NCBI RefSeq assembly: GCF_016758115.1
Contig: NZ_WIVG01000003.1
Span: 1 to 64,000 of the forward strand
Length of the DNA: 64,000 bases
Direction of reading: 5' to 3'
Origin: Lactococcus garvieae
GTDB taxonomy: Bacteria; Bacillota; Bacilli; Lactobacillales; Streptococcaceae
The notes beneath the pieces were generated by a model. The model searched no databases and was not told the origin of the DNA. It saw only the letters and a list, made by a program, of their open reading frames with translations. A program made the position numbers and the translations under genes. Below, piece by piece: positions 7,767-64,000 of the stretch (position 1 is its first letter; every line of letters begins with the position of its first letter).

Positions 7767-9272
7767 ATGACAATTTATAACATTAATTTAGGAATAGGCT
7801 GGGCAAGTAGTGGAGTTGAGTATGCCCAAGCTTACCGCGCGAGTGTGTTTCGCGACTTGGGGATTCCTGCCAAATTCATCTTTACAGACATGTTTCAACA
7901 TGAAAATTTGGAACATTTGACTGCAAATATCGGCTTTAGTGATGACGAGATTATTTGGCTATACAGCTATTTTACAGATATTAAAATTGCTCCAACAAGT
8001 TATCCCCTATCAGAACTTGAGAACAGTTTCACTCTACCTGTTCAGTCTATTGATAAAGCTGGAAATTTATGGCGTTATCACTTTAACGAGGATTTCTACG
8101 CTAACGTTTCCCTATGCGGGCCTGAGGATAACTATGTTCAACGTGTAGAATACGTATCAAAAGGTAATTTAGTACGTAAGGATTACTATAGTTATGTAAA
8201 GATTTTTACGGAATATTACATGCCCAAAGATCAAAAACTGCAACTCATTCAGCGCTCCTTTTTCAATGAGGATGGGAATGTCGCCTATGAAGAATATTGT
8301 GAGCCTGAGATGAGCATCTTCAAGTTTAAAAACAAGTGGTGCTATGGCAAGGAAGAGTTAGTAGGATATTTGTTAGACTGTTTGGCGTTAACAAGACAAG
8401 ATATGATTTTACTTGATCGTGCAACAGGTATTGGACAGGCTGTATTTGACCATAAGGGGCAGGCTGCTCTAGCTGTGGTTATCCATGCAGAGCATTACAA
8501 TGCAAAAGCAGATGAAGAGGATAATATTCTGTGGAATAATTATTACGAATATCAGTTTACAAATGCTGATAAAGTCGATGCCTTCATCGCCTCAACCCAA
8601 GTCCAAAAGGAACTCTTGGATGAGCAGTTCCAACATTATACAACTCACCGACCAAAAATTTATGCTATCCCTGTAGGGAGCTTGGATAAGTTACGCTACC
8701 CAGAAAGTCAGCGTGTGCCTTATCGCATGATGACAAGTTCACGTTTGGCTTCAGAAAAGCATATTGATTGGCTTTTACAAGCCGTTATTTTGGCGAAAAA
8801 ATCTTTGCCACAGTTGACATTTGACATCTATGGTGAAGGAGGAGAACGCAATAAACTCACAAAGCTTATTTCTGATGCTCATGCTCAGGACTATGTTCAG
8901 CTGAAAGGTCATCAGAACTTGACAGAAATCTATAAAGATTATGCTTTATACTTGACGGCCTCCACCAGTGAAGGATTTGGTTTAACTCTTCTTGAAGCAG
9001 TAGGTTCGGGTCTGCCTTTGATTGGTTTAGATGTACCTTATGGCAACCAGACCTTTATCCGTCATGGGGAGAATGGTCTGCTCTTAGAACGCCAAGAACC
9101 TGATAATAGCCAGCATATGGCACAAGTTTTTGCTGATGCTATTGTTCAATACTTTCAAACAATGGATGCAGATAAGGCACATGCCCATTCTTACCAAAAA
9201 GCACAGGCTTTTTTGGCACACGAAGTAGCTAAACAGTGGCAAGACTTTATCAAGGAGGTTTTATATGATTAG
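7767..9272 (+). CDS. gtfA: Adhesin O-GlcNAc transferase subunit GtfA
   Basis: A 501-residue GT4-type glycosyltransferase that adds the first GlcNAc to Ser/Thr of the serine-rich adhesin, working with GtfB. The sequence shows the family N-terminus (MTIYNINLGIGWASSGVEYA), an EX7E motif in EGFGLTLLEA with Glu402 and Glu410, and the add-on beta domain typical of Gtf1/GtfA around residues 75-190. It starts 11 bases after the secA2 stop with AAGGAAG as RBS. The last three codons overlap gtfB, which suggests balanced synthesis of the two subunits. Confidence 0.92.
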   Translation: MTIYNINLGIGWASSGVEYAQAYRASVFRDLGIPAKFIFTDMFQHENLEHLTANIGFSDDEIIWLYSYFTDIKIAPTSYPLSELENSFTLPVQSIDKAGNLWRYHFNEDFYANVSLCGPEDNYVQRVEYVSKGNLVRKDYYSYVKIFTEYYMPKDQKLQLIQRSFFNEDGNVAYEEYCEPEMSIFKFKNKWCYGKEELVGYLLDCLALTRQDMILLDRATGIGQAVFDHKGQAALAVVIHAEHYNAKADEEDNILWNNYYEYQFTNADKVDAFIASTQVQKELLDEQFQHYTTHRPKIYAIPVGSLDKLRYPESQRVPYRMMTSSRLASEKHIDWLLQAVILAKKSLPQLTFDIYGEGGERNKLTKLISDAHAQDYVQLKGHQNLTEIYKDYALYLTASTSEGFGLTLLEAVGSGLPLIGLDVPYGNQTFIRHGENGLLLERQEPDNSQHMAQVFADAIVQYFQTMDADKAHAHSYQKAQAFLAHEVAKQWQDFIKEVLYD

Positions 9273-61419: not shown

Positions 61420-61863
61420 ATGGATTTTTTTAAAGAAATTATAAGTAACCAAATACTGCTAACGGCTCTAGTGGGATGGTTTGCTGCACAAATAATTAAA
61501 ATTATCGTTGATGTATTTCGTTATAAAAAGCTGGATTGGAGTTTACTTTTTGCGACAGGAGGTATGCCGAGTTCCCACAGTGCACTAGTTGTTTCAATGA
61601 CGACAGCAACGGGATTATCGCAAGGGTTTGACTCGCCTGTTTTTGCTGTGGCAACAGTTTTTGCCTTTGTGGTGATGTATGATGCGCAAGGGATTCGACG
61701 TCAAGCAGGAACGCATGCTTATATCTTGAATATCATTATCAAAACGATTGAGAGCCCCAAGATCAATGCAGAAAAAGCGCTGAAGGAATTACTGGGGCAT
61801 ACACCAGTACAGGTGCTTGGCGGTGCTATTTTAGGAATCCTTGTTGCACTTTTGATGAATTGA
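61420..61863 (+). CDS. Divergent PAP2 (DUF212, YuiD-like) membrane protein
   Basis: A 147-residue membrane protein of the divergent acid-phosphatase/vanadium haloperoxidase type. The family marks are GGMPSSHSALVVS (phosphatase-like SH motif), VVMYDAQGIRRQAGTHA and the C-terminal GHTPVQVLGGAILGI. It probably acts on a lipid-linked or soluble phosphate, but the activity of DUF212 is not established. The ATG at 61420 has AGAGGAGGGG upstream. Confidence 0.87.
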   Translation: MDFFKEIISNQILLTALVGWFAAQIIKIIVDVFRYKKLDWSLLFATGGMPSSHSALVVSMTTATGLSQGFDSPVFAVATVFAFVVMYDAQGIRRQAGTHAYILNIIIKTIESPKINAEKALKELLGHTPVQVLGGAILGILVALLMN

Positions 61864-61970
61864 AGCAGGCTGTACTGTTATTGTATATAGGATAACACGC
61901 TATCAGAGTCGTATAAGCTAGTTCTCAGCAAGCTTTCTCTTGAATATTTATAACACAAGCATACTTCCAA

Positions 61971-62010
61971 AATAAAGAGCTGCATGATTTTGATGCAGCT
62001 CTTTATTAAT
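61971..62010. terminator. Bidirectional terminator
   Basis: A perfect 15-bp stem AATAAAGAGCTGCAT/ATGCAGCTCTTTATT (61971-61985 with 61993-62007) more than 100 bases after the PAP2 gene. Confidence 0.88.
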
Positions 62011-62211
62011 ACACTTTTTATGCCAGCCACTTGTTATACGCTTTTGAATTTTACAAAAGATGATACAGGCGCAATATATATTCAAACGAATCAGCATCAA
62101 TCTATAATACTAGATTAAATCTTTGCTGAACAGGGATTTTTAACTCTTGTAACTGCCAGCTAAAAGTATGATAATAGCGGTGGAAATACCTTTTTTAGAG
62201 AAGGAAATTTT
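62008..62211. other. Gap before the bacteriocin-like set
   Basis: A 32-codon frame from ATG 62021 (ends ...QTNQHQSIILD, stop near 62117) has no RBS and looks like decayed coding DNA. The rest should contain the promoter of the next gene; no clear boxes were found. Confidence 0.35.
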
Positions 62212-62770
62212 ATGGAAAAGAAAAAAGGAATTATACTTGCTGTTGCTACAGTTACATTTTCAACCATAGGATTTGCAAATTTAACAGTCACAAAAACATC
62301 TGCAGACGAAGTGAAAAGTAGTCAAACTTCTTCTGTTCAAGATTTAGGTCAATTTGATAAATTTATTGAAGTATATAACAATAAATTTATTGTTAAAGAT
62401 AGTGACGGAAAAATACCAAATACTACTTTATCCGAATTAATAAGGTAGTATCTGATACAAATAAATATATTCAAGATAATAATTTAACGATTAATCCTTC
62501 AACTAAAATGGCCCTACAATATGTGTTTTTTGGTAATACAAACTCCTTAGCTCGTTCTTATGGGAAAATGGTCTACTTGCAATTCGGTGGAACAGTGTAC
62601 GAGTTGGTCTAGATAAAGGACTAACAAATGATATTCTCCACGGTGGGGGTGCAGGAGCAGCTGTTGTTATTGTTACCGTGATAGTTGATAGACATTTGGA
62701 TACCAAATCAGGTTGGTGGTTTGACTATAATGTATATCTGAGACGTGTCACTAACTTTGGAAGACAATAA
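62212..62770 (+). pseudogene. Secreted bacteriocin-like protein with two single-base deletions
   Basis: The ATG at 62212 (RBS AGAAGGAAA) opens a signal peptide (MEKKKGIILAVATVTFSTIGFANLTVTKTSA). The frame stops at 62448. Restoring one base near AATAAGG (62440-62445) continues it (VVSDTNKYIQDNN...), and a second missing base in GGGAAAATGG (62562-62570) would allow it to end at 62770, about 186 residues. The restored product has DKFIEVYNNK..DGKIPN and LLAIRWNSVRVGLDKGLT followed by an Ala/Gly/Val-rich hydrophobic stretch, the same order as the 16.6 kb protein. It is thus a diverged, decayed copy of that family. Confidence 0.65.
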
Positions 62771-62784
62771 TTAAAAGGATAGTT

Positions 62785-62961
62785 ATGAATAAATCATCGA
62801 CCATCAAAGCATTACTCATGATAACGTTTATTATAATTACAGTTATCGTATTTCGACATATAACATTTTTATCTGAAATTTGGAATACAGTGTTTCTAAC
62901 CCTTTTTATCCTTGTAGAGTACTTCTTTGTAAATAAAATCGTTGATAAAATTGCTCCATAA
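62785..62961 (+). CDS. Small two-helix membrane protein, putative immunity partner
   Basis: A 58-residue protein (MNKSSTIKALLMITFIIITVIVF...) with two hydrophobic helices and a short charged tail (VNKIVDKIAP). AAAAGGAT precedes the ATG by about five bases and the gene starts 14 bases after the end of the decayed secreted-protein gene. It has the same topology and place as the gene at 17317 and probably plays the same role. It appears intact although its partner is broken. Confidence 0.6.
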   Translation: MNKSSTIKALLMITFIIITVIVFRHITFLSEIWNTVFLTLFILVEYFFVNKIVDKIAP

Positions 62962-63305
62962 ACCATTAAAATATTTTCATCATATCTGACTCTCTCATCT
63001 ATAGGTATTAATACATTGTCAAATTCTCTCCTAATTACCTTAAAACCGTCTGTTGAAAACGGAAATATTTTTTTATTCTTTATCTTTCCAGTTGTACGCG
63101 TTTTGTACTCTGATGGATACGTTGATAAAAAAAGTAGATACAAAAGAACAAAAAAACTCAAGATATTTTAAACTATGAGCTAATTGTTTATTAATTCTGT
63201 TGCAAAGACTATCTTTTTTCCTCTATTTTTACAATAAAATAGACTTGGCGGAAAACTTAGTAATAAATCTGGAACTAGTAAGATAAAAATTATAGGAGAA
63301 AAAAC
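62962..63305. other. Gap with decayed coding sequence
   Basis: A minus-strand frame covers this stretch (FKVIRREFDNVLIPIDERVRYDE is protein-like), but it has no ATG or RBS and runs antisense into the membrane gene, so I take it as a remnant at most. TATAGGAG at 63291 serves the next small gene. Confidence 0.35.
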
Positions 63306-63401
63306 ATGGAAGATGCAAAATTTTTAAATGCTGCTGGTCCAATATGTACTCCTATCTGGCTTCAGTGTACACTACAAGACCAAATACGTAATCCTACCTA
63401 G
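63306..63401 (+). CDS. 31-residue cysteine-containing peptide
   Basis: A small ORF with TAGGAG seven bases before its ATG. The peptide starts MEDAKFLNAAG and continues PICTPIWLQCTLQDQIRNPT; it has two Cys (14 and 21), an aromatic core and no signal peptide. The charged start and short Cys/Thr/Trp core would fit a ribosomal peptide precursor or signalling peptide, but no processing genes are visible within the window. The ORF cut at 63981 has a similar upstream sequence and start (MENVKI), suggesting a paralogue. Function is not known. Confidence 0.45.
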   Translation: MEDAKFLNAAGPICTPIWLQCTLQDQIRNPT

Positions 63402-63507
63402 CAATAGTATACGCTTTTATCTACAAATTAGATATCTTTTAATTACCTGCATTTGTAGAGGAGAAAAATGGACTCAGAAATAAATAATTAAGATTGGAGT
63501 AAGGTTT

Positions 63508-63915
63508 ATGAAAAGAATAAATTTGAAGAAAATTGTTTCAATTATTGCTGGAGCGTTGTTAATGGTTTCCGTAGTGATACCCGCAGTTGGAAAAGCTGGA
63601 ACAAGAACAACAAGTTGTTATAAAGGCTCAGCACTGATGTGGAGTAATGATCACGTAACATTTTCTTATAATGGTAAATCAGTTACTAGCTCTTATGCAT
63701 ATCAAGATGGAGGGGCTATCTTCCCGCTTACCATGTCACTCAAAGGAATTAAGATGGTATCAAAAACCACAACTCAAAGATCTTATCAAGGGCGCTACTT
63801 AGGTGGTGGTGGCATCCCGACTCCGTGGGGGAATGCTAACTTAATTAGTCAAACGAAAACAATGCAAACTTGGGTTCGTTCCAATGGTTCATGGGCTGCA
63901 AATTGGGTAGGTTAA
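63508..63915 (+). CDS. Secreted protein of unknown function
   Basis: A 135-residue preprotein. The signal (MKRINLKKIVSIIAGALLMVSVVIPAVGKA) should be cut after AVGKA or so, leaving about 105 residues rich in Gly, Ser, Thr and Trp (ALMWSNDHVTFSYNGK, GGGGIPTPWGNAN, WVRSNGSWAANWVG) with one Cys. The size and exported nature recall small secreted bacteriocins such as lactococcin 972, but I see no specific match. The HVTF segment and length of the mature part loosely resemble the 11.4 kb secreted protein. RBS GGAG/AAGG before the ATG. Confidence 0.6.
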   Translation: MKRINLKKIVSIIAGALLMVSVVIPAVGKAGTRTTSCYKGSALMWSNDHVTFSYNGKSVTSSYAYQDGGAIFPLTMSLKGIKMVSKTTTQRSYQGRYLGGGGIPTPWGNANLISQTKTMQTWVRSNGSWAANWVG

Positions 63916-63980
63916 TTGAAAAAATGTGGAGCCAGAGGGAGACTATTTGTTTTCTTTTGGCTTTTCTTTAAGGAAAAAAC

Positions 63981-64000
63981 ATGGAAAATGTAAAGATAGA
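63981..64000 (+). CDS. Start of a further small gene (cut by the window end)
   Basis: AAGGAAAAAAC precedes ATGGAAAATGTAAAGATAGA, so a protein beginning MENVKI runs off the window. The site resembles the region around 63295-63315 (AGGAGAAAAAACATGGAAGATGC), hinting at duplicated small-peptide genes. Confidence 0.4.

Follow-up and report, generated by a model that had tools for sequence, protein, structure and literature searches.

In this work, the right edge of a 64,000-nucleotide stretch of Lactococcus garvieae DNA (the window, positions 1 to 64,000 of contig C53) was analysed together with the adjoining sequence and with other contigs (C35, C37 and C69) of the same genome, G000, an assembly of 2.30 Mb in 129 contigs. 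Contig C53 extends 23 kb past the window, and the next 19 kb were read, to C53:83000. The locus carries the following features, in window coordinates unless the contig is named:

62146 to 62175, plus strand: promoter-like element CTTGTAACTGCCAGCTAAAAGTATGATAAT, common to the peptide-gene loci (pattern matches in the own genome; upstream DNA resembling that of the C35 array)
62212 to 62770, plus strand: decayed secreted-protein gene (three-frame reading; intact 216-aa relative at C37)
62785 to 62961, plus strand: 58-aa membrane protein, probably the immunity counterpart to the product of the decayed gene (hydropathy; position)
62981 to 63112, minus strand: relic of a plasmid gene with a DNA/RNA-helicase domain (83% identity over 133 columns to Lactococcus plasmid pVF21)
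63306 to 63401, plus strand: 31-aa peptide MEDAKFLNAAGPICTPIWLQCTLQDQIRNPT of the MxxAK...C14 RiPP-precursor family (18-member alignment; enzyme at C69)
63508 to 63915, plus strand: 135-aa secreted protein, predicted beta-sandwich, probable bacteriocin (cassette recurrence; model)
63981 to 64000 in the window, plus strand: 220-aa ABC ATPase, in full C53:63981-64643 (sequence past the window edge)
C53:64615-65562, plus strand, outside the window: 315-aa ABC-2-type permease (PF12679 at E 1e-3, below cutoff)

The first-pass annotation had listed here a decayed secreted protein, its membrane partner, a 31-residue Cys peptide, a new secreted protein and the start of another small ORF, and each of these items was found. 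The gene at 62212 is called decayed because it is open for 78 codons (62212-62448), then shifts frame twice and continues in the second and third frames to about 62770. The 58-aa ORF is strongly hydrophobic by hydropathy, and the intact 135-aa ORF begins with a signal-peptide-like hydrophobic N-terminus. A start does lie at 63981, but it opens the ABC ATPase gene, which runs past the window edge, and not a small ORF. The ABC transporter forecast beyond the edge is present as this ATPase and the permease, whose genes overlap by 29 bases. Past the pair, a release-factor-3-like gene begins at C53:65894 and is followed by a DEAD-box helicase and other housekeeping genes, all named from reading ORFs of at least 60 aa with no family search. 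Among these ORFs, no LanM/LanB, radical SAM or two-component gene was recognised up to C53:83000, so that the ABC pair alone was found of the partners suggested beyond 64 kb. The proposed bacteriocin island fits this arrangement, with the ATPase and permease coming one gene after the secreted protein, and its antibacterial role is putative.

The first two genes (module A) look like a toxin-immunity pair. The first 78 residues of the broken gene weakly match the intact 216-aa ORF at C37 (E 1e-3, 45% over residues 3-75), and the third piece resembles the same protein as judged by eye. Small hydrophobic ORFs come behind the C37 ORF. Relatives of the C37 protein were found in 20 plasmid records, and the annotation of four was read: two Lactococcus plasmids carry a 234-aa relative immediately followed by an ORF of 55 or 60 aa, and no small ORF is annotated beside the 222-aa relative on an Apilactobacillus plasmid or the 202-aa relative on the 2297 bp Mammaliicoccus sciuri plasmid NZ_CP120087.1 (L172). 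The latter plasmid has just two annotated genes, one of which is this relative. The small membrane proteins of C37 and of the plasmid loci share 17-27% identity with the 58-aa protein, for which hydropathy and position suggest a probable immunity function towards the broken secreted protein. The secreted family to which the broken gene probably belongs (the C37 protein and relatives) matches no known bacteriocin model, and direct searches of the plasmid collection with the 78-aa piece and with the 58-aa protein gave no match. The helicase relic separates module A from the Cys peptide.

Module B consists of the genes for the 135-aa protein, the ATPase and the permease, and this three-gene cassette recurs elsewhere. 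Relatives of the 135-aa protein occur in five of the 18 genomes of the genus, the own one included, and on two Lactococcus plasmids. The order secreted protein, ATPase, permease is kept at all seven other loci with a relative (L011, L012 and L018-L022; five from four genomes of the genus, and two plasmids with the same ATPase), where identity to the window is 39-59% for the ATPase, 25-45% for the permease and 20-64% for the secreted protein. An eighth cassette locus lies in G473. Of the two Lactococcus plasmids, one is 6 kb long and is otherwise annotated with replication genes, mobilisation genes and one hypothetical gene; on the other, pLLF72C, the secreted gene is without its start and signal peptide. 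Conservation of this kind (4 of the 17 other genomes of the genus and two plasmids), together with the peptide paralogues and the intact relative of the first piece of the broken gene, indicates that the small ORFs at the right edge are more than chance. Furthermore, the ATPase was used to scan 84,980 species, each represented by one genome; this yielded 161 loci, and the best 80 of them were retained. With an iterated profile, a secreted-family member was found upstream of the ATPase match, at a gap of 6-443 bases, in 24 of these best 80 loci and in 23 of the best 36, leaving 13 of the best 36 with none; the 36 ORFs include four pairs that are the same DNA under two locus ids. The family at these loci spans Lactococcus, Bacillus, Gottfriedia, Ornithinibacillus, Listeria, clostridia-type genomes and one Agrococcus. 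Its distribution is patchy: at E 0.01, relatives were found in 11 of 335 family-rank genomes, where six of the matches are weak and fall in one other genus, judged to be Streptococcus (E 3e-5 to 3e-3), and in 2 of 398 genomes sampled from the phylum, own one included. In the one Streptococcus genome that was read, the relative adjoins a different ABC set. The 135-aa protein and about 14 scanned relatives gave no significant match in Pfam or NCBIfam, and the Pfam scan of the 135-aa protein found no family at E up to 1. Phage searches and a pattern scan of viral contigs gave no match; a PHROG match of a Bacillus relative (E 9e-4) was set aside.

The best NCBIfam model of the ATPase is the lantibiotic-protection model TIGR03740 (85.5 bits against a cutoff of 309.75); TIGR03608 gave 57.4 bits against a cutoff of 254.85. 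The ABC pair is likened to lantibiotic protection because TIGR03740 is the nearest model of its ATPase, and it may give immunity, although the ABC models score far below cutoff. LanFEG-type transporters have two permeases, whereas the window cassette has one. In a Lachnospiraceae genome, RiPP-like precursor ORFs lie upstream of a related ATPase (L078:3376-4170), and therefore this ABC subfamily may serve several bacteriocin kinds.

The 135-aa protein is a probable bacteriocin. In common with the lactococcin 972 type (PF09683; streptococcin B, scbABC), the cassette has a signal peptide, an all-beta protein (here as predicted) and three genes with an ABC ATPase, and both occur in lactic acid bacteria and on plasmids. 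In lactococcin 972 loci the partner is a larger membrane protein, whereas the partner here is an ABC-2-type permease of about 315 aa, and the mature domain of the 135-aa protein is longer. Membership of the type was rejected: there is no PF09683 match, TIGR03608 stays below cutoff, and hhalign gave a probability of 0.2% between profile A5 and A10, the latter built from 9 of the 12 lactococcin 972 loci. Alignments A5 and A9 hold 20 of the 24 family loci plus the window, with L069, L070, L079 and L083 left out. The model of the 135-aa protein is all-beta, and no lactococcin 972 row stands among the structure matches listed, which is not evidence either way. A lactococcin 972 gene (PF09683, above cutoff) lies elsewhere in the own genome, at G000:C39:37510-37698 on the minus strand. 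In G001, a cassette of the 135-aa family is preceded at about 190 bases by a decayed gene of the same type (L020, about 7820-8240), with a partial PF09683 match and a frame change, and at about 2 kb by an LXG-domain gene. Streptococcin B is described as a beta-sandwich bacteriocin thought to be secreted by Sec, with two partners predicted to give immunity and transport (PMC11796350), a plan similar to that of module B.

AlphaFold, run with 21 sequences, gave an all-beta model of the window protein with seven strands in residues 31-134 (pLDDT 80.4, pTM 0.66). The best PDB match by Foldseek was 4k15 (Lmo2686/Zea; E 2e-3, probability 1.00, TM 0.40), and VIA also ranked 4k15 first (Z 8.3, 3.2 A, 92 residues), the next entry having Z 4.7. 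A model of the Gottfriedia relative also had 4k15 first (Z 6.7, 3.3 A, 90 residues; Foldseek E 0.05), with 3c5p next at Z 5.6; the two models are not independent because they were built from the same 21 sequences. The resemblance is thus a lead of moderate score, as Z 8.3 is barely above and Z 6.7 within the best values that VIA typically returns where there is no clear match. Zea, like the 135-aa protein, is secreted, and, as in Zea, a further stretch separates the signal peptide from the beta domain in several members of the secreted family. We consider it improbable that the 135-aa protein is no bacteriocin but a Zea-fold protein that is secreted and binds RNA or belongs to the envelope, with an ABC pair that exports something or relieves envelope stress. 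Besides the first rank of 4k15 for both models, what is described of Zea would suit this reading: it is secreted, hexameric and RNA-binding, and lmo2686 belongs to the operon lmo2689-lmo2686 with ftsW2 and rodA3, which is induced by beta-lactams and moenomycin (PMC6686043) and not by vancomycin, lmo2686 also having its own start site. However, 3c5p follows closely in the second model, the 135-aa family has no detectable sequence similarity to Zea, and the PDB searches do not point to it: profile A5 matched no PDB chain at E up to 10, and the queries A2, L094 and L091 found unrelated chains or none, 4k15 not among them. Moreover, the Listeria operon, as described, has ftsW2 and rodA3 and no such ABC pair, and cassettes on small plasmids suit competition better.

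The 31-aa Cys ORF at 63306 stands behind AGGAGAAAAAACATG, and a DNA search found a gene like it in C35, which has a tandem array of three. In total, nine intact peptide genes lie at five places in the own genome, and nine are present in the sister genome G007. The MxxAK gene at L003:6959-7039 on the minus strand (C53:69959-70039) lies 6.6 kb past the window peptide behind its own upstream element of the shared type. The precursors are 25-32 aa long, and in the alignment of the 18 peptides from both genomes M1, A4, K5 and C14 (alignment column 14) are invariant, while the core sequences differ widely among paralogues. In the window peptide, Q stands in place of the W of most relatives; its gene is 1.1 kb away from the shared upstream element, and no maturase is encoded nearby. 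Third positions hold 22 of the 40 differences in six ortholog pairs (p 0.004; one pair of unequal length was skipped and pair C35-2 left out), and the peptide ORFs at C69 are 88% identical against 74% for the DNA between them. Thus, as judged from substitution patterns, the peptide ORFs behave as genes. A peptide search at E 0.05 gave matches in 49 of 328 genomes and, within the genus (n=18), in G000 and G007 only. Among the 23 matched loci outside these two genomes that were read (L178-L200), only L188, in G053, holds an ORF with M1, A4, K5 and C14, and it is taken as chance because it is embedded in a TetR-like gene in another frame, is not preceded by a ribosome site and comes from a genome with no maturase match. 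The A1 search at E 1 gave weak matches in 11 of the 18 genomes of the genus and strong ones in G000 and G007 only. A model of the 18 peptides, which matches its own members by construction, gave 13 matches in G000, 11 in G007 and one weak match each in G005 and G022 at E 0.05; the matches beyond the known peptides (four in G000 and two in G007) are partial, one of them being an out-of-frame copy at C69. Plasmid matches of one peptide (four records from other genera, E 1 or worse) were set aside, and the Rfam search gave no match. Lanthionine chemistry was rejected for the peptides, as the member at G007 C8:1839 has no Ser or Thr. Near two of the peptide genes lie gene sets (L003:8286-10159 and L004:7767-14105) that look like a SipW-type signal peptidase with TasA/CalY-like secreted proteins.

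The shared element was written as a pattern from six upstream sequences. It has four exact matches in the own genome (C35, C37 and two in C53), all of which precede either peptide genes or this operon; because the pattern was made from these sites, they show only the absence of other exact matches. The reversed pattern had 0 matches. At the peptide loci checked, the element lies 45 to 142 bases upstream of the peptide gene, and the DNA upstream of 62212 resembles that upstream of the C35 array. Allowing one mismatch added a fifth, new site, through which the maturase locus at C69 was found. Sites with two mismatches (four in G000, one of them in C69, three in G003 and two in G009) are regarded as background, since G003 and G009 are without the peptides and the reversed control gave one such site in G003. 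A simple promoter scan gives no support, with 8 sites against 10.1 expected, and no terminator-like site was found in 61850-64000. In G007 the promoter-like region directly abuts the last third of the permease. Most simply, therefore, the ancestor had the operon, and G007 lost it together with the window peptide by internal deletion. This deletion, the broken secreted gene, the helicase relic and the out-of-frame copy at C69 are what would be expected if the cluster were a graveyard of unrelated plasmid-gene debris without present function, but the open frames of the 135-aa protein, ATPase and permease and the third-position excess in the paralogous peptides argue against it, and we regard this explanation as quite unlikely.

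The modification enzyme expected nearby was not recognised next to the window, but C69 encodes a radical SAM enzyme suited to the Cys peptide. There, three intact and one out-of-frame peptide gene stand upstream of a 441-aa protein with radical SAM (PF04055, 1.4e-21) and PqqD (PF05402, 4.4e-9) domains, both above cutoff; in G007, four intact peptide genes stand upstream of the enzyme. Its best NCBIfam model is AlbA (NF012164) at 125.5 bits, below the cutoff of 850. The Pfam scan found no SPASM family, several SPASM-type NCBIfam models align nearly as far as the C-terminus with none above cutoff, and a C-terminal Cys cluster is visible in the translation. At E 1e-20 the enzyme occurs in 9 of 328 family genomes and, within the genus, in G000 and G007 only; enzyme and peptides are thus found in the same two of 18 genomes, which is weak evidence for a pairing because these are sister species. 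No maturase was found on plasmids at E 1e-25. Relatives in another genus (L225-L228) have 31-40% identity, one with an internal stop, and each has a larger Cys-bearing precursor-like ORF upstream. As in AlbA/SkfB (subtilosin/sactipeptide) systems, a PqqD and radical SAM enzyme with C-terminal cysteines stands beside Cys precursors; C69 differs in scoring far below the AlbA cutoff, in precursors of 25-32 aa spread over five places, and in that no alb-type export or immunity genes were recognised beside the enzyme. A single promiscuous enzyme serving many precursors, as proposed for C69, is also the plan described for the prochlorosins, although those are lanthipeptides of cyanobacteria and C69 is a radical SAM system in a Lactococcus-type host (PMC10783134). 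The pairing of enzyme and peptides, and a Cys thioether as its product, are put forward as candidates. Many dispersed short genes with a common upstream element, with no exporter or immunity gene recognised beside the copies at C35, C37 and C69, could also mean that the MxxAK peptides are signalling peptides (modified pheromones) controlling a regulon and not antibacterials. This is doubtful, as so wide a core divergence between paralogues is unusual for a pheromone with one receptor, and no receptor-regulator was recognised beside the peptides; the C69 array does, however, have a TetR-type gene nearby.

We hypothesize, with a probability of about 0.6, that the right edge is a composite bacteriocin-type operon, of putative activity, carrying a RiPP precursor that is modified in trans. 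One transcript would run from the promoter-like site at 62146 to C53:65562. Module A (62212-62961) would have encoded a Sec-secreted toxin-like protein and a small membrane immunity protein and would now be broken. From module B (63508-65562), the beta-sandwich protein would leave by Sec and probably act at the cell envelope of neighbouring Gram-positive cells, and the dedicated ABC ATPase and permease would protect the producer, as in lantibiotic protection systems. The 63306 peptide would be a short RiPP precursor, whose residues 1-13 (MxxAK...) would be recognised as a leader by the PqqD domain of the C69 enzyme; acting in trans, the enzyme would form a sactipeptide-like crosslink between Cys14 and a residue further downstream. 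A wider proposal, which we hold tentatively and at less than even odds, is that of a RiPP regulon spread over five places in the chromosome, where at least nine short precursor genes would stand behind the same promoter and have their products processed by a single radical SAM maturase. One of these genes would be built into an operon for beta-sandwich toxins, which would be secreted, have a dedicated ABC transporter for protection and form an unnamed, widespread family that may be the source of the Zea fold.

Among the matches listed from the literature on sactipeptides, dispersed precursors, Zea, lactococcin 972 and small secreted bacteriocins, with many subscription papers outside, neither these peptides nor the cassette is described. 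The locus points to a protein family, small and secreted, that is repeatedly accompanied by an ABC partner in several bacterial groups and has no Pfam or NCBIfam match among the members tested. It also points to RiPP precursor genes, many in number and unlinked, that seem to share a promoter and to be served by a single radical SAM enzyme. Should the resemblance to Zea be borne out, it would suggest that this protein, which has been studied in infection, originated in competition between bacteria.
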